A stretch of 64,000 nt of DNA from Bacteroidia bacterium (GTDB taxonomy: Bacteria > Bacteroidota > Bacteroidia > Bacteroidales > F082): contig JAJTAY010000029.1 in assembly GCA_021287165.1 (NCBI GenBank), positions 62,001-126,000 of the forward strand, in the 5' to 3' direction. Below the pieces are notes generated by a model. The model did no database searches. It was not told where the DNA came from and worked only from the letters and a program-made list of their open reading frames with translations. The translations under genes and the position numbers were made by a program. Of the stretch, positions 40,884-49,181 are shown piece by piece. The stretch's first letter is position 1, and every line of letters starts with the position of its first letter.

Positions 40884-42383
40884 TCAAGTTTTGTTGTCGA
40901 ACGACCAGGGACTTAATTTCTTTGCAGTCAAATAAATATACTCTCTCTCCAATTGCTGACTCATAAAAATAAACGACCAGCTCAGGTAGATCATCACCCC
41001 TGTCGGCATCTGCCCCAAAACACCGTTTCCGTAGCTGGCCCCCATGATTCCGGTAAATCCTGCCATGAGGGCCGACATTATTCCGCGCAGCTCTGGTTCT
41101 TTAAGGCGAAACATAATTATATAGGATCCTTTCAACAGAATATAGCTCAGTATCGACAGGTGAAGAATAAGTCCAATAATGCCTTGTTCGGCCCAAATTT
41201 GCACATACCAGCTGTCGGTAGCAATTTGTGCAAGGAAGCCCTGTGGCGAAAAACGCTTTCCCCAGTCACCCGCACTACCAATACCTCCGCCGAAAGGCTT
41301 ATTCGCCAGGTAATTGCTTAGAATTCTTCTGTTTTCAAGGCGTACTAAGTAGGATGCATCGTCTTCGGGTCTAAAGGCGGTGCGCATACGGCGAATCTGC
41401 GAGTTGCCCTGTCCAATATAGGTGTAGGCAAAAAACGCATAAATGAGCGCCATCAGGATGCTGCCGATGAAAAATGCCTTGAAGTTTTTTCTTAAAAGAA
41501 TGAAGGTGGCCCCGCCAACCATCGGAACAATCATTGCGCCACGGGTTCCGGATATCATCATACCCCAAAGCCCGGCAACACCCATAACTATAAAAAAGAT
41601 CTTGTTGAACCTGCCTTTGATGCTTAATGCTGTTAGCAAGCCAACCACACCGGCAGCGCCCTGCGCCGCCCCGAACTGGCCTGCGTCCGAATAAAACGAG
41701 AACACGCGAAGTTCGCCAAAAAGGATATGGGTTACGGCACCAACGGTATCAAGCCAGTACTGCTCGGCCGAGTCAGGTCCGATATACAACTGTTGCAACC
41801 CCTTGAGTGTTCCAAGAATGGAAAAAGCTCCCCACATGTACAGAAAGATGATGAGATATCGTAATCTGTTGAAAATGAGAAGCGCTATGGGAATGAGCAA
41901 CAGCATGTAGAGCGATATACCACGCATGGCATAAAACCATGCTGTGCGGCTAAGTGCCTCCGGATTAACCAGTTGCAAAATGCTGTAAAGAAACCATATT
42001 ATGGACAGGTAAACAATATCGCGGTTGATTTGTGACCAGCTCACTTTTTCATAAAAGTACCTGAAAAAGATGGCAATGTAGGTTAGCACAAGGAAGCCGT
42101 CGATGGAAAGACCCAATGGGACACCGCGTATGTATCTGGTTAAACCGATGGCCAGAAATGCGAGCGCAATTATGGTATATATGCCTACTCTTGGATCGTT
42201 TAAAAAACGGTTAGCAAAAATTATACCTGGAAAAAGCACAAGTAGAGCCACGGCGACCATAAGGCCACCTTTGGCGATGATATATCCTAAAATAAGCGCC
42301 AGCACAATGAGGATAAGGATCACAGCGGGATGCTGCAATTTTTCCGCACCATTTTTGTCCTTCAACGACGAAAAAAGGTTCAT
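40884..42383 (-). CDS. O-antigen ligase/polymerase-like membrane protein (Wzy type)
   Basis: A 499-residue polytopic protein with about 11-13 membrane helices. A large extracytoplasmic loop (about 345-405) is rich in Arg and aromatic residues and includes MRTAFRPEDDASYLVRLENRR cut by family-typical Arg positions, followed by FGGGIGSAGDWG, as in the Wzy_C/RfaL-type family. It likely polymerises flipped repeat units in the periplasm. ATG 42383 (MNLFSSLKDK) overlaps the flippase stop as ATGA and is preferred over the longer frame to 42425. The adjacent Wzx-like and Wzc-like genes support Wzy over a lipid A ligase role. Confidence 0.88.
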   Translation of the reverse strand: MNLFSSLKDKNGAEKLQHPAVILILIVLALILGYIIAKGGLMVAVALLVLFPGIIFANRFLNDPRVGIYTIIALAFLAIGLTRYIRGVPLGLSIDGFLVLTYIAIFFRYFYEKVSWSQINRDIVYLSIIWFLYSILQLVNPEALSRTAWFYAMRGISLYMLLLIPIALLIFNRLRYLIIFLYMWGAFSILGTLKGLQQLYIGPDSAEQYWLDTVGAVTHILFGELRVFSFYSDAGQFGAAQGAAGVVGLLTALSIKGRFNKIFFIVMGVAGLWGMMISGTRGAMIVPMVGGATFILLRKNFKAFFIGSILMALIYAFFAYTYIGQGNSQIRRMRTAFRPEDDASYLVRLENRRILSNYLANKPFGGGIGSAGDWGKRFSPQGFLAQIATDSWYVQIWAEQGIIGLILHLSILSYILLKGSYIIMFRLKEPELRGIMSALMAGFTGIMGASYGNGVLGQMPTGVMIYLSWSFIFMSQQLEREYIYLTAKKLSPWSFDNKT

Positions 42384-43825
42384 GGCCTCCCCTTGGTTTT
42401 TAAATTGTCGAGCAAAAGGTTCCAATTGACTTTGATAACCTTGTAGCCTTCAGCAAATATAGCGCTTTTGTCGAGCTTGAGCGAGCTGTTCATATAAGAG
42501 TACCCGATCACAATGCCAATAAGGGTGAACAGGATGGTAACCACTGCTACAAGCTCCAAACTCTTGATCAGCGAAAACCCGTGTGCAACCCTGTAGGCAT
42601 CATCAGGGGAAAATCCCTGCGAAATCAGGATTAGCCAGGAGCTGCCTAAGATAATTTGCGAAAGCCCGAAAACTACGATTAAGTCGCCGACAATATTGAA
42701 AAGTGCCATAAACAGCACCTTGTAAAAGTTATGTCTGGGCATATTGATGCTGTCGAGACCAACCCCAATAAATCTGTCGATGGGAAGAAGAAGCCCGTAG
42801 ATGCAAAAAATCCTGAAAATATTTGCCGAAACAACATAATCATCTCCCCCCAGAAACCATACAATCTGCTCGGCAAAAATGAAGCTCAGCAACATCAGCG
42901 GAATCATCAAAATGGTAGTGCCGCCGGCGTTCTGATAAAAGATACGTTTTGCCTCGTCCAGATTACCTTCTATTGCAGCTTTAGACATGCTTGGAAATGC
43001 AGTTCCGGCAAAGCTTCTTAACGGAATCTCTATAATTTCCGTTAGTTTGAGGGGAATGCTGTATACTGCAACACCTGCAGGTCCCATAAAAGTACTCAAA
43101 CCTATAATAAAGGTGTCGGAGCTTTTAAGAAGATTGCTGCCGATGAGCGTTCCAGTGGTATATTTTCCAAAGTTGAGGATAGTACGTATTGATCGTCTGC
43201 TTGCCTGAAAGGTATGTCGTATGCCATCCCAGTTGAATAAAGACGCAAGAAGAGAGCTGAAAAGGTTTGTAATCAGATAAGCCCAGATAATAGTATCGAT
43301 GTTGTATTTCTGCCAAAGGTTAAAAACAAGAAACAACATAAACGAAAGTACATTGACAATGCGCAGCAGCAACATTAGGTCGAAGCGCATTTTAGCCTGC
43401 AATACCGATTGGGCGTTGTTGAAGCCAAGATTGAAAAGGGCGAGAAGGGGATACCACTTGAAGAAGAGCAGGAAGCCCGAACCTGTCAGTCTTTCTTCGA
43501 AATAGAAATATATTGCAGCTAGAATGAAGGAGACAATTGCCGTTGAGATTAAATTGATGAGACTATTGGCTCCCATAAGTGCCTTGGCTTCAGATTCTTC
43601 CGCGCCGGCAACAAAACGAATTACCGCAGTACGGGTAATCCCGAAACGCAACATATCAATAAAACCACCTGTAGTGATGAGCAGCACCCACTCGCCAAAA
43701 GTTTCCTGAGGCAGCGCCCGTACTAGCATAAAAAAACTAAGGAAAGCAAATACGGCAACAAGCCCGTTATTTGCCAGCGAAAGGAAATTATTGCTGGTCA
43801 GTAGTTTTTTCAGCAGGTGGTTCAA
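42380..43825 (-). CDS. polysaccharide flippase, Wzx-like (MOP superfamily)
   Basis: A 481-residue protein with about 12-14 membrane helices spread over its whole length, matching the oligosaccharide flippase family. The N-terminal FLSLANNGLVAVFAF and RALPQETFGEW, and the segment GKYTTGTLIGSNLLKSSDTF with charged residues inside helices, are typical. It is expected to move undecaprenyl-linked repeat units to the periplasmic face. It is flanked by the Wzc-like co-polymerase gene (9-base spacer) and the Wzy-like gene (4-base overlap), the classical Wzx/Wzy set. Confidence 0.92.
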   Translation of the reverse strand: MNHLLKKLLTSNNFLSLANNGLVAVFAFLSFFMLVRALPQETFGEWVLLITTGGFIDMLRFGITRTAVIRFVAGAEESEAKALMGANSLINLISTAIVSFILAAIYFYFEERLTGSGFLLFFKWYPLLALFNLGFNNAQSVLQAKMRFDLMLLLRIVNVLSFMLFLVFNLWQKYNIDTIIWAYLITNLFSSLLASLFNWDGIRHTFQASRRSIRTILNFGKYTTGTLIGSNLLKSSDTFIIGLSTFMGPAGVAVYSIPLKLTEIIEIPLRSFAGTAFPSMSKAAIEGNLDEAKRIFYQNAGGTTILMIPLMLLSFIFAEQIVWFLGGDDYVVSANIFRIFCIYGLLLPIDRFIGVGLDSINMPRHNFYKVLFMALFNIVGDLIVVFGLSQIILGSSWLILISQGFSPDDAYRVAHGFSLIKSLELVAVVTILFTLIGIVIGYSYMNSSLKLDKSAIFAEGYKVIKVNWNLLLDNLKTKGRP

Positions 43826-43834
43826 TGCTCACAA

Positions 43835-46702
43835 TCAATTTTCCTTCACCTGAATTTTAATTCGGGTTGGCAGAGTAAGGTAATGCTTTAATTTGTTGGT
43901 GATAGTGTCGGTTCGCTGTGATTTTACACCGGAAATCATTTCCCTGATGGCATAGTCTTCTGCTTCGTTGAGAATTACCATTGGTGGTTCCTTGGCCAGT
44001 TCCTTGATGATTTCAAGTGCTCCTTCGTCGGCCTTGGACCAGCCTGCATTGGCTTTTACGACCAGCATGGCAGCATCAACCTGCGAAATCAGTTCCATCG
44101 GGAAACTATGGAAGATGATTGACGGGATTTCCAGCAGGATGTAGTCGTAGGGCGTATTTTCGCGGCGCAATACCTGTGCGTTGATCAGGTCTCTTATGTT
44201 TTTAATTTCCGGGAAATTCTCACGGATTAAGTATTGATATTGCTGTTCAAGATCGGCGTTTTCGGGTTGTACATCTTCGTTGGCATAATTGAGCATGAGC
44301 ACTCTTTCGCCATAAGTACGAAGTTTGTTGGCCACTTTGTTCATTATGAGCGTCTTGCCAACTTGTCCCTGCGTACTGAAGAAGAGAACCAGATAGGGTT
44401 TTCGTGCAGGATAAACCGAGTTGAGTGCAATAGTCCGCTTGATATTCTGGATTATCATCTCAACCAATCGATTGGTCACAAATGTGGCGTCCTTCATTCG
44501 GACAGCAGCGCCAAGATATGGATAAGCTCCTGCGAGTTTTAATCCAATCTTTTCGACGGCACGGTCCGGGTTCTTGAGCGACATATCGAAATACTCTAGT
44601 ACAAGGATGATAAAAAGCACCAGGAAAAATCCAATGAGTGCAGCGGCCACAACAAGGTACTTAGCCTTGGACGGATTTGCCTGTAAGGGGAAATACGGCG
44701 GATCAACAATTCTTATGTTGGTGGCCATCTGAAGGTTTTGTTGGCGCATCTTGGCAAGGTTCAGGCTCCTTAGCAGTTCCAGATACGTCTGTTCTGCAAT
44801 GGTCATTTCGCGCTCTATACGTTTCAGGATAGCTCCCAATGGTGCAAAACGCTGATAGGTTCTAACAAAATCGAGCTTACGCCGGGCAAGTACCACCAGG
44901 CTTGCCTTTGCCTCCTCGTAGGTCAGGGCATTTTTGAGCCACTCGTCTAGCAAACGGGCAATTGGGAGACCTTGTGTAGAATGACTGTAGAGGTAGAGTT
45001 GATCTACGTATAATTTTATTTCGTCGCGCAGAATGTCTGCCCGCCTTCTTAGCACTGCAATTTCATCGCCGATGCGCTTGTCGTAATCCTCCGCCAGTTC
45101 GTTAATGAGAATGCGCTCGGTGATGTCGGCGTATTCCTTTCGCTTTTGGTTGATAACATCACTCTTGAGGTAAATGCTGTCGCGTCGGGTAAGTTTGGTT
45201 TCCAATTCGCGAAGCGAAGCGGCCGACTGTGCCATGCGAACCTGCTCGTTCGAATAATAAAGATCGAGCTCTTCTTTCTGCTCTGCAATAAACTTTGTTT
45301 GCTCAGGATAGTTGATGATATTATTTTTTCTGTTGAATGTAAGCAACTTATCCTCAGTGAGCTTAAGTATTCTGTCGGCACTGTCCACCTGTCTGCGGAA
45401 GTAATCGACAACCATATCGGTTTGGCTTTCCTTAAGCAGCTTGTAATTTTTTACAAAAACATGGGCAATAATTTTGAGCGTCTGCTGGCAGATACCAGGG
45501 TCGTCGGAAGTATAGACAAGCCTCACAAGGTCAGAGTTGCTGATGCGGTATATCTGCAACCTTTTAAGCGATTTTATGGAGTAATGTGGGCTGGTGCCGT
45601 AGTGTAGCAGTCCGTATATGTAATTGGTATCGTTTGAGTTGTAGTAATTGGTAAAATTCTGAACAGTTTTATTGAAGTCATCCTCTCTGATTCCGACAGG
45701 AATAATCGGGTCTTTCTCAATAAGCTGATCAATCATTTCGTTGTTCAGGTTTCTCGTCCTGCTTCCTTCCTGTCTTGCAGGCTGATGGATGAATGCATTC
45801 CAGTCTTCGGTGTTCGGGTCGTAAACATCGTCGGGCATGGCATCTAAATTTGCTTCATCCGGAATAGGGGAGTCGAGCGAATAAGTCTGGGCAGCGGTTG
45901 TTGTATACACGGGATTGGAACGCTCAATGACAATCCTTTGGCCAGATCTTAGTTCCTGAGAAGAAAGGTTATTGAGTTCACGAAGATGGTTCATGCTTAC
46001 ACCATACTGTTTGGCGATGGTAAGCAGGGTTTCGCCAGCCTTTACAACATGAATGCGCTCGCTGGTAGCGGCGGATTGTTGTGCGGTGGAGGTACGAAGC
46101 TGATTGTTGTTGTCGTAATAATAGGATTGTTGTTGTATAACCGGCTCGTCTTTCGAAAGACCCTCTTCGTTTGGCCGGCTTTGCGGCACGGTGGTTTCCG
46201 GTGAGAGATCTCCGTTGATGCGCTGCTTGTTAATTTCACGCTCGAGCGATTTCAGTTCACGTTCGAGTGCCCTGATCTGTTCCTCTTTTTCTCTTTGCAC
46301 ACCCGCCTTGCCGTTTTTAACGACCATGTCCTTGACATGTTTGGGGGTGTTCTTCATCAGCTTGTCGTAATTCTCGTTCGAAATGTACTGTGGATTATAA
46401 GCCTCGAGCGAAAGATTCTGTGCATAGAGCATAATTGCGGCCTCCACGATGGTTTGCCGCGAGTTGATGAGGTTGATAAGGTTGTCGAATTGGGCGCTCG
46501 TGAAGAAATAGTCAGTTGGGCGCTGTGCGGTGGATTCAATGGAATAGCCTGTGGTAATCCCCGTGTAAATAATTGCCTCCGATTCGAAGACACTATCCTG
46601 GTTTCGTGTAAAATAGAAAACAACCAGAGCCAGCAGAAGCGGTATTGCTATCAGCAGCAGCAGGTTGTTTCGTATGACGCGTAGAAACTGGGCTATATCC
46701 AT
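43835..46702 (-). CDS. Wzc/GumC-like polysaccharide co-polymerase with internal LysM domain and degenerate BY-kinase domain
   Basis: A 955-residue inner-membrane protein. Layout: helix 1 (about 14-31), Wzz-type periplasmic region, a Gln/Asn-rich linker, a LysM domain (about 217-261; HVVKAGETLLTIAKQYGVSM and LSSQELRSGQRIVI), long coiled coils (about 400-660), helix 2 (about 680-705), then a cytosolic P-loop domain (about 735-955). The P-loop is STQGQVGKTL; the Walker A' position reads VLMLNYANED instead of LLIDADLR, and Walker B reads ILLEIPS. There is no C-terminal tyrosine cluster. It should control chain length and link to the cell wall, but tyrosine autokinase activity is doubtful. Confidence 0.9.
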   Translation of the reverse strand: MDIAQFLRVIRNNLLLLIAIPLLLALVVFYFTRNQDSVFESEAIIYTGITTGYSIESTAQRPTDYFFTSAQFDNLINLINSRQTIVEAAIMLYAQNLSLEAYNPQYISNENYDKLMKNTPKHVKDMVVKNGKAGVQREKEEQIRALERELKSLEREINKQRINGDLSPETTVPQSRPNEEGLSKDEPVIQQQSYYYDNNNQLRTSTAQQSAATSERIHVVKAGETLLTIAKQYGVSMNHLRELNNLSSQELRSGQRIVIERSNPVYTTTAAQTYSLDSPIPDEANLDAMPDDVYDPNTEDWNAFIHQPARQEGSRTRNLNNEMIDQLIEKDPIIPVGIREDDFNKTVQNFTNYYNSNDTNYIYGLLHYGTSPHYSIKSLKRLQIYRISNSDLVRLVYTSDDPGICQQTLKIIAHVFVKNYKLLKESQTDMVVDYFRRQVDSADRILKLTEDKLLTFNRKNNIINYPEQTKFIAEQKEELDLYYSNEQVRMAQSAASLRELETKLTRRDSIYLKSDVINQKRKEYADITERILINELAEDYDKRIGDEIAVLRRRADILRDEIKLYVDQLYLYSHSTQGLPIARLLDEWLKNALTYEEAKASLVVLARRKLDFVRTYQRFAPLGAILKRIEREMTIAEQTYLELLRSLNLAKMRQQNLQMATNIRIVDPPYFPLQANPSKAKYLVVAAALIGFFLVLFIILVLEYFDMSLKNPDRAVEKIGLKLAGAYPYLGAAVRMKDATFVTNRLVEMIIQNIKRTIALNSVYPARKPYLVLFFSTQGQVGKTLIMNKVANKLRTYGERVLMLNYANEDVQPENADLEQQYQYLIRENFPEIKNIRDLINAQVLRRENTPYDYILLEIPSIIFHSFPMELISQVDAAMLVVKANAGWSKADEGALEIIKELAKEPPMVILNEAEDYAIREMISGVKSQRTDTITNKLKHYLTLPTRIKIQVKEN

Positions 46703-46712
46703 AGGTTCCTGT

Positions 46713-47489
46713 TTATCTGAGTACGTTGACTAAGTTGAAGTTGATTCCGGTAAGTATCTCGAGCGTGCGGTAATTTTTGCTGAATTCGGCGATGGCCTGC
46801 TGGTATTCGATGGCACCTCGGGTTTGGATTTCCTTGAGCCTTGTATACTCTGCAGTCCCAATTTCGCCATTAAGAAATTGGTTCTGAGCCATCTGCATCT
46901 GAATCAGGGTAAACTTTTGATAATCATTATAGATTCTGATGTAGTTCTGCCACTGGATCATCATGTCGTAAGCTTCGATAACCTGAGTAACGACGAATTG
47001 CCTGTTGATCTCACGTTGAACAAAGGACAGTTCTTGCCATTTTTTTTGCTTTGCGATGCGATTTCTCCTGTCAACTAGGGTTGCAAGAGGAAAACGAATG
47101 TAAAATCCAATAGCAAAATTGTCCCTCATAGAATTGAGGTCGATCATGAAAGGCGGGCTAATCGTAGAAGACTGTCTGTCGTGAAAATTCCAGATACCCC
47201 AGTTCCAGTCGAGGTTGAAACTGAAATGTTCCATCCAATGACGCTCAACGGTAAGCTGTTCGTAATAATAGTAATCCGCTTTGAGCTCCTCATACCTTAC
47301 AGAAGGGGAGTGTGCAACGGCAGAATCGATAAGTACCCTGATATTGGGCAGTCGCTTGGTAATATCGTCCGTCAGTGGGTTGAACAGTTTAGATTCATCT
47401 GTTGCCAGAATCTGGGCATGAACAGACATTTTAGCGCATAAAAGAACCGCAATTAGGAAAAGGATTTTATTAAAATAGTTCTTACTCAT
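46713..47489 (-). CDS. half-length TolC-like outer membrane factor
   Basis: A 258-residue exported protein. A signal peptide (about 1-25, ending SVHAQ) is followed by features of one outer-membrane-efflux repeat: an N-terminal helix SAVAHSPSVRYEELKADYYYY, a beta-hairpin-like stretch rich in Trp/Asp (about 80-125), then long coiled helices (about 150-235) with the NQFLNGEIGTAEYTRLKEI pattern. TolC family members usually have two such repeats and 400-500 residues, so this is about half size. It lies between the priming transferase and co-polymerase genes and may replace a Wza-type exporter, forming a hexamer of half-units; that is inference. Confidence 0.82.
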   Translation of the reverse strand: MSKNYFNKILFLIAVLLCAKMSVHAQILATDESKLFNPLTDDITKRLPNIRVLIDSAVAHSPSVRYEELKADYYYYEQLTVERHWMEHFSFNLDWNWGIWNFHDRQSSTISPPFMIDLNSMRDNFAIGFYIRFPLATLVDRRNRIAKQKKWQELSFVQREINRQFVVTQVIEAYDMMIQWQNYIRIYNDYQKFTLIQMQMAQNQFLNGEIGTAEYTRLKEIQTRGAIEYQQAIAEFSKNYRTLEILTGINFNLVNVLR

Positions 47490-47594: not shown

Positions 47595-48770
47595 TCAGAC
47601 GTTTTCTTTTTGAAACAAGGCAGGAATGGTTCTCAGAATAAGTTTTATGTCGCCCCAGAAAGAATAAGTCTGGGCGTATTGGTTGTCGAGTGCTTTGCGT
47701 TCTTCATCCGACATAACACCTTTTTTGCCTCTTTTTTCCACTTGCCAGAGTCCGGTTATTCCGGCAGGGCCAAGAAAACGCGCACTCCAGTCGTCCGACG
47801 TAAGTTGTTCAGCTTCATATAAAGGCAAAGGACGATTACCGACAATCGACATATCGCCTTTCAAAACGTTAATCAATTGTGGAAGCTCGTCGATACTGGT
47901 GTTACGGATGAAACGTCCAACCTTGGTAACGCGTGGATCGTCTTTAATCTTAATGAAAATGGCTCCGCTTTTTTTCTTTTTAAGTTCCTGATACCAATAC
48001 TCACAAATTTTGTGTCCTTCCTTGTAAAGTACAGGTGAACATAAGGTGCCCTCGGGCAGTTTTGCACATCGGGGGCATTCTTCCTGCATTTCTTCTTTCG
48101 TAAGGTCTTCGCTGCCGCTTTGATATTGGTTAAGGTGCTTAAGCTTGGTCAAGTCCTTATCAGCTCCGGTGTACATGGAGCGGAACTTGTAAAAATCAAA
48201 AATTTTATATCCCGTGCCAACTCTTTTCGACGAATACCAGACTTTTCCTTTTGATTCCAGACGTATGGCAATGGCCACGATGATAAGCAAAGGTGAAAGC
48301 AATAAAAGTGCAGTGAAGGAGACGAGAATATCAAACAGCCTTTTGTCCCAGGGGAGTCTGTATTCGCGGAATACAGCGCTTTGATCTGCAGTAATATCGC
48401 CAAGTTGTTTTAGCTGGATAAGAAATTCAGATCGCAGCAAAATTTTTTCAGGTTCGAAATCGACTTCAAAAAAATCGTCAACCCCAAGGTGATGCGCTTT
48501 ATGCTTCATCTCGGGATTCTTTTGATCCGAGAAAATCAGAAATGGAGCATTGGGACAAATACCTTGTAGCTTAAATAGCTTGAAGATTTCGAGGGCATTT
48601 ACTCCCGGAAGATACAGCTCGGAAATTATGCAATCGGGAGTGAATCCTGATTTTATGACATTAACGGCCTCAAAACCATTGCCAGTAACACGTATTTCAA
48701 GTCCAGTGGCGGCTGAGCTGAGTCCTTCGGTGTTTGCGAGATTACCGCCAATGTAAAGGATTCGTTGCAT
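47595..48770 (-). CDS. priming sugar transferase fused to degenerate receiver domain, with Cys4 insertion
   Basis: A 391-residue protein. Residues 1-120 resemble a receiver, but the acidic pair is absent (ILYIGGNLA), the phosphoacceptor position is Glu51 in SELYLPG, and the conserved Lys is missing. From 138 it is a WcaJ/WbaP-type phosphoglycosyl transferase: YRLPWDKRLFDI, membrane re-entrant helix (about 146-170), KFRSM (195-199), DDPRVTKVGRFIRNTSIDEL, GNRPLP and the PGITGLWQV-like end. Between them (about 200-275) is an enlarged segment with Cys232, 235, 244 and 256. It transfers the first sugar-phosphate to undecaprenyl phosphate. A regulatory role for the pseudo-receiver is inferred. Confidence 0.9.
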   Translation of the reverse strand: MQRILYIGGNLANTEGLSSAATGLEIRVTGNGFEAVNVIKSGFTPDCIISELYLPGVNALEIFKLFKLQGICPNAPFLIFSDQKNPEMKHKAHHLGVDDFFEVDFEPEKILLRSEFLIQLKQLGDITADQSAVFREYRLPWDKRLFDILVSFTALLLLSPLLIIVAIAIRLESKGKVWYSSKRVGTGYKIFDFYKFRSMYTGADKDLTKLKHLNQYQSGSEDLTKEEMQEECPRCAKLPEGTLCSPVLYKEGHKICEYWYQELKKKKSGAIFIKIKDDPRVTKVGRFIRNTSIDELPQLINVLKGDMSIVGNRPLPLYEAEQLTSDDWSARFLGPAGITGLWQVEKRGKKGVMSDEERKALDNQYAQTYSFWGDIKLILRTIPALFQKENV

Positions 48771-48809: not shown

Positions 48810-49181
48810 CTACTTTCGTGCCAAAAGCAATTCGATACGAATAGAGAGTTCCTCAGGGTTGAATGGTTTTACCACATAATCATTGGCGCCCATCTTCAGG
48901 CATTTGATTTTTTCCTGACTGCTTTCGATGCCTGAGAGCATGATGAGCGGAATATCCTTGTAAAACCCACTTGCGCGTATTTGCTGAATAAACTGAATTC
49001 CATCAAGGTTAGGCATCTGAATGTCGGCAACGATAAGATCCGGAAGATTTCCATCCTGCAGCCATTTCATGGCTTCCAGGCCGTCGCTTTTGGTTGTCAC
49101 CTCATAAGTTTTTCCAAGATAGTTTTCGAGCAACAACCGAATACTCAATTCGTCATCAATGACAAGGATTTTCTTTTTCAT
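48810..49181 (-). CDS. single-domain response regulator at the head of the polysaccharide operon
   Basis: A 123-residue receiver without output domain. All active-site residues are present: acidic pair in LVIDDELS, phosphoacceptor Asp in VADIQMP, Ser in IMLSGIE and Lys in VVKPFNP. It lies 39 bases before the pseudo-receiver sugar transferase gene in the same direction and is first in the operon. It may receive phosphate from a hybrid kinase such as the one encoded at the other end (26609-28984) and act by contact with the transferase or another cluster protein. A TAATTTTG box lies about 74 bases upstream. Confidence 0.93.
   Translation of the reverse strand: MKKKILVIDDELSIRLLLENYLGKTYEVTTKSDGLEAMKWLQDGNLPDLIVADIQMPNLDGIQFIQQIRASGFYKDIPLIMLSGIESSQEKIKCLKMGANDYVVKPFNPEELSIRIELLLARK

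Follow-up and report, generated by a model that had tools for sequence, protein, structure and literature searches.

A degenerate receiver fused to a predicted small phosphoglycosyl transferase, and the intact receiver encoded beside it, in Bacteroidota

Undecaprenyl phosphate is scarce and is shared with cell-wall synthesis, and so the control of surface-glycan priming is an open question. A locus in the 64,000-nucleotide stretch of Bacteroidia bacterium DNA analyzed here (the window) poses it in a particular form. A gene for a putative priming transferase fused to a degenerate receiver lies directly behind a gene for an intact receiver. Does the second protein control the first, and by what means?

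The fused gene (47595..48770, minus strand) starts with ATG and encodes 391 aa; the plus strand of the same interval has no open frame. Its translation matches PF02397 at residues 143–386, with 195.8 bits against a cut-off of 27, and PF00072 at residues 22–111, barely above the cut-off with 31.8 against 30.2. The catalytic domain, of the monotopic phosphoglycosyl transferase kind, occupies residues 140–391 (47598..48353, minus strand). Within it Asp294–Glu295 (47886..47891, minus strand), which we take from the PF02397 family to be the catalytic pair, is invariant in 121 of 121 proteins—the fusion and its 120 nearest homologues among the matches listed—and in all 87 rows of an alignment. A long helix at residues 141–173 (48252..48350, minus strand), predicted from the secondary structure of the AlphaFold2 model, carries Ser159–Pro160, with Pro160 invariant in the 87 rows and Ser159 kept in at least 90% of them; presumably these form the re-entrant membrane feature. 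Chance or artefact as the source of the fusion's features is ruled out by conservation, and relatives are known from several Bacteroidota orders. Pfam finds neither the PF13727 DUF nor a four-helix bundle ahead of the catalytic domain, PF00072 alone preceding PF02397, and the NCBIfam cut-offs of large transferases are not reached (TIGR03025, 231.3 against 295.55 bits); TIGR03022 (194.9 against 403) and TIGR03023 (193.6 against 410.75) also score below theirs. By its sequence, the 391-aa protein is a predicted small monotopic phosphoglycosyl transferase behind a degenerate receiver, which stands in the place that the DUF or four-helix bundle occupies in the large transferases WbaP and WcaJ.

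The degenerate receiver takes up residues 1–125 (48396..48770, minus strand). An AlphaFold2 model and a structure match give residues 1–127 a receiver fold, as the sequence-only reading of this locus had supposed; the fold was modeled for one fused protein, and the domain is kept in 102. That reading had also found the phosphorylation residues missing, and alignment to the neighboring receiver bears this out: the acidic pair has become Gly8–Gly9, the phosphoacceptor Asp has become Glu51 (codon 48618..48620, minus strand), and the Lys has become Val103. Because these residues are lost despite the fold, we call the domain a pseudo-receiver. In some fused proteins the decay is, to judge by their sequences, incomplete; in 3 of 101, which have Glu at position 51, two acidic residues still stand side by side and a Lys is nearby, and none of the 101 combines Asp51 with a nearby Lys. 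Glu51 had been thought to mimic a phosphorylated Asp. Position 51 is Glu in 75 of the 101 fused proteins, Asp in 13, and N, K, Q, Y, S, A or G in the other 13; since it is not fixed, the case for a phosphomimetic role is weak, and an essential one is rejected as a general rule. The two best-kept residues of the domain lie elsewhere: Arg113 (codon 48432..48434, minus strand; 97 of 101) and Asp99 (codon 48474..48476, minus strand; 95 of 101). Gly8 is kept in 92. Mean pairwise identity is just 0.28 for the pseudo-receiver, against 0.59 for the regulator and 0.75 for the catalytic domain.

The intact receiver, correctly recognized from the sequence alone, is a single-domain response regulator of 123 aa (48810..49181, minus strand; PF00072, 97.5 bits) encoded 39 bases upstream of the fused gene. 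It keeps Asp9–Asp10, Asp53 and Lys105 and has, by Pfam, no output domain of its own. Of the 101 upstream regulators, all have Lys105 and 100 have Asp53. How regularly do the two genes keep company? We collected 145 loci, 140 of them with a transferase, which yielded 125 distinct proteins once 15 identical ones were dropped. Of the 102 fused loci, two (L052 and L079) have too little upstream sequence to tell; in 99 of the other 100, the gene immediately upstream, in the same orientation, encodes a stand-alone receiver (97 by script; two, L080 and the cut-off copy L061, by reading). The sole exception, L117, stands outside the counts 'of 101' and the 124-row tree described below; its genome (G383; 99% complete, a single contig) has kept the fusion without a partner regulator. 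Receiver-free relatives have the regulator directly upstream in 4 of 23 cases (L135, L139, L140 and L144; for one of the remaining 19, upstream sequence ran to just 305 nt), and on a Hymenobacter plasmid a regulator accompanies a transferase that has the four cysteines discussed below and no receiver. The loci are related, and so these counts do not represent independent events.

Whole genomes give a similar picture. Of 41 genomes, the window's own and 40 relatives, 17 have a strong full-length match to the fusion (E ≤ 1e-130, a cut chosen after the list was seen), and a strong match to the regulator (E ≤ 1e-45) occurs in the same 17, at adjacent coordinates. The wider cut of E ≤ 1e-60 gives 20 of 41: the 17, two genomes (G002 and G008) with a receiver-free copy only, and one (G026, locus L025) with a weaker fusion beside a weaker receiver. 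A genome survey with four candidates scored per genome gave at least 36/395. In three genomes, from one genus of another family, the adjacent regulator scores 129–141 bits and the next receiver 70–77. The pair is present, without the cysteines, in the gut species Bacteroides finegoldii and Parabacteroides distasonis, and it persists in differing neighborhoods: after uvrB, after an asparaginase gene and after a divergent glycosidase gene. Over 97 pairs, regulator distances and pseudo-receiver distances show a partial r of 0.41 after catalytic-domain distance is removed, a value equaled in none of 499 permutations and from which shared ancestry is not fully removed. Adjacency could reflect shared transcription alone.

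The other peculiarity of the fused protein is an enlarged mobile loop at residues 200–279 (47934..48173, minus strand), placed by alignment, by the AlphaFold2 model and by the loop position in the available parts of published papers. It holds four of the protein's six cysteines (the others are Cys47 and Cys72): Cys232, Cys235, Cys244 and Cys256 (48003..48077, minus strand; codons 48075–48077, 48066–48068, 48039–48041 and 48003–48005). The usual zinc ribbon has two CxxC knuckles. The spacing here, C-x2-C-x8-C-x11-C, has one, where the sequence-only reading had seen the spacing of a zinc ribbon; the positions themselves had been given correctly. None of the four cysteines varies across the 121 proteins, again the fusion and its 120 nearest homologues among the matches listed. 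In the 125 distinct, more diverse proteins they vary together rather than freely: 107 carry the complete set, 18 carry none of the four, and not one has an intermediate number. Eleven of 101 fused proteins are without them, and all 11 have the regulator. The loop, counted from Met199 to Arg280, is similar in length with or without the cysteines (72–90 residues in fused proteins, 76–85 in the short bin). A 124-row tree, built from the catalytic domain minus the loop, has the cysteine state changing at least six times, only one change being forced by well-supported branches.

What might such a loop do? Residues 143–210 and 268–389 align with residues 280–346 and 356–473 of WbaP (30us_A), with the loop in between, and residue 275 pairs with residue 78 of PglC. 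In the available parts of the papers concerned, the mobile loop is WbaP 337–369 and PglC 61–81, and it closes upon ligand binding (PMC12550135, PMC10519829, PMC10942596). Aligned in this way, the four-cysteine loop occupies the place of the known substrate-closing loop. In its model, the CPRC turn carries a short helix, and a hairpin ends at Cys256. A Pfam scan of three loop sequences returned sub-cut-off matches only (YabA, 14.7 against 30 bits; TYW2_N; Sec66), and a PDB search with a profile of 16 cysteine-bearing loops returned none; in the VIA-align structure-match lists, absence of a fold carries no meaning. A literature search, mostly outside subscription papers, held no report of a four-cysteine loop in these transferases among the matches listed. 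The simplest reading would be a structural zinc site in the substrate lid. The sequence-only reading had suggested a metal or a redox switch; because the cysteines are kept all or none, a structural metal site is favored over a redox switch.

It had also tied the loop to control by the receivers, and this did not hold. A receiver-free relative in the window's own genome (G000:C34:150293-151129; L002, L149) carries the four cysteines, with no regulator beside it; a second match of the receiver-free type occurs in 15 of the 17 genomes whose fused match is strong. Since the cysteines occur in receiver-free relatives, the Hymenobacter copy among them, and are missing from some fused proteins, they constitute a separate module, and as part of a receiver switch they are ruled out by this distribution. 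Homologues keeping both the cysteines and Glu51 had been proposed as a check: the cysteines are complete in 107 of 125 proteins, and Glu51 is present in 75 of the 101 fused ones.

The genes downstream, on the same strand, indicate which pathway the transferase might prime. They encode a short outer-membrane protein of the TolC/OEP type (46713..47489; PF02321), the usual next gene in related loci; a Wzz-type copolymerase with a LysM domain (43835..46702; PF13807 just under the cut-off, PF01476), in its usual position; a Wzx-type flippase (42380..43825; PF01943); a Wzy/O-antigen ligase-type protein (40884..42425; PF04932); and, after this, a glycosyltransferase. With this set of genes, the locus looks, from its sequence, like one for a Wzx/Wzy-type polysaccharide. 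Two of the products are curious in their own right. The LysM of the Wzz-type protein lies at residues 218–259, and, of 53 long homologues, 21 have a LysM-like motif by a crude scan; to our knowledge, LysM in a chain-length protein is unusual. The TolC-family protein, with one OEP match, is 258 aa, about half the length of TolC, and its homologues adjoining the pair have a median length of 260 aa (86 matches, some cut by contig ends).

An intact receiver calls for a kinase. The window pair has none directly beside it, uvrB being the upstream neighbor. Among the 51 fused loci with at least 3.5 kb of sequence upstream, 11 have a kinase core on the same strand within that distance. Pfam identifies upstream proteins at L066, L078, L105 and L072 (a duplicate locus, outside the 51) as kinases with a receiver, and that at L112 as a sigma-54-type regulator. 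In three genomes of one genus (L150, L151 and L152), kinase, regulator and receiver-free transferase follow in a row, an unfused version of the system; the L150 kinase, the one of the three submitted to Pfam, is a kinase–receiver–Hpt protein. G383, the genome that lacks the partner regulator, has a different set of genes upstream of its fusion on the same strand (L117/L179): a different receiver, H-NOX, a PAS/HNOBA kinase, a FIST protein and a second kinase. These genes hint at nitric-oxide-linked control in that lineage.

There are precedents for parts of this arrangement. In Myxococcus xanthus, according to the available part of PMC12802240, EpsW acts post-translationally to stimulate the priming transferase EpsZ, a large monotopic enzyme with a DUF and a membrane bundle, modeled as an active dimer. 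There, as here, a single-domain phosphorylatable regulator is paired with a transferase that primes a Wzx/Wzy-type polysaccharide. The catalytic core here is small, in contrast, with a fused pseudo-receiver and usually the four-cysteine loop, and the pairing is known from genes; since the transferase is not of the large type, the pair may work like EpsW/EpsZ yet is not a member of that system. Catalytic fold and invariant Asp–Glu are shared with PglC and other small and bifunctional monotopic transferases, whose receiver-fused members are already in print (available parts of PMC12802240 and PMC10942596); according to the Discussion of PMC12802240, O'Toole 2021 reported receivers in the small monotopic class. 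The claim that known transferases lack both receiver and loop was thus too strong for the receiver. What sets the present proteins apart from those small transferases is the enlarged four-cysteine loop and an intact second receiver gene that almost always accompanies theirs. Among the matches listed in the literature search, which lay mostly outside subscription papers, the pair in Bacteroidota is unreported. The diguanylate cyclase PleD, whose second receiver is degenerate, presents the same order—phosphorylatable receiver, degenerate receiver, catalytic output—but in one gene rather than two, and with another output. Both receivers of our pair map in order onto PleD, with an overall rmsd of about 15, and so the arrangement differs.

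Taken with the receiver domains of small transferases, the EpsW/EpsZ precedent leads us to prefer post-translational switching with the pseudo-receiver as an adaptor. The phosphorylated neighbor regulator likely switches the priming activity of the fused protein by direct contact. The regulator would be phosphorylated by a histidine kinase, such as some relatives encode close to the pair, and would then dock on the pseudo-receiver, the catalytic domain or both. The pseudo-receiver might serve as a permanent docking or dimerization adaptor where large transferases carry their DUF. Docking would decide whether sugar-1-phosphate is loaded onto undecaprenyl phosphate, and hence whether a polysaccharide is started. 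The four-cysteine loop, a separate module, would be a lid, stapled by a metal, that covers the UDP-sugar site. We are least sure of the direction of the effect (activation, by analogy, is preferred), of direct contact between regulator and transferase, and of the metal. When regulator and fusion were co-folded as one chain, pTM was 0.45, against 0.52 for the fusion alone, and docking was not confident, so that contact stays inferred; the structure alignments held 87 and 71 rows, part of the sequences at hand. The structure prediction urged by the sequence-only reading thus gave the receiver fold for the protein alone and no confident docking with the regulator. Unless we misread the evidence, that reading had the right kind of control—the adjacency in 99 of 100 loci, the same 17 genomes and EpsW/EpsZ all speak for coupling—but it joined two separate modules and overrated Glu51.

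One might object that the pseudo-receiver does nothing. Its low identity is, on the face of the sequences, odd for a dedicated docking surface, and the regulator also precedes transferases without a receiver, at four loci and on the Hymenobacter plasmid. The regulator might therefore act on the catalytic domain alone, leaving the pseudo-receiver a passive relic or spacer of an old fusion. Against this, the domain has been retained in 102 fused proteins, with Gly8, Asp99 and Arg113 kept in most, and we consider the relic unlikely. The same two observations do suggest that the catalytic domain may take part in the contact.

Two further alternatives appear less probable still. Gene order is no proof of contact, nor was the co-fold confident, and the adjacent receiver might serve some other partner, sharing just an operon with the transferase. 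We doubt this strongly: regulator and fusion give strong matches in the same 17 of 41 genomes, the pair stays joined across its differing neighborhoods, and the regulator by itself lacks an output domain. The four cysteines, for their part, might form a redox switch or an Fe–S cluster that gates priming, as their joint retention at the position of the substrate-closing loop would allow. That, too, strikes us as improbable, given that all-or-none retention across the 125 proteins points to a co-ordinated metal more than to disulfide pairs (a fit that an Fe–S cluster might share), that the module is found with and without receiver and regulator, and that Pfam gave no match above cut-off for three loop sequences and the PDB no match for the profile of 16 loops.

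If switching of the transferase by its neighbor is indeed what happens, a major phylum, including its gut symbionts, would have a point at which kinases control priming post-translationally, and one that could be tested with two small proteins. The four-cysteine loop sets off a subfamily of transferases whose substrate lid may be built around a metal. A bolder version, which we entertain only tentatively, is that of a 'split PleD' in Bacteroidota, in which a phosphorylated single-domain receiver and its dedicated pseudo-receiver together turn on priming, as the first committed step toward a surface polysaccharide, and in which, in most sampled lineages, a zinc-stapled lid in the substrate-closing loop shapes the sugar site. 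Were it true, this would be a new class of kinase-gated glycan initiation, phylum-wide in Bacteroidota.
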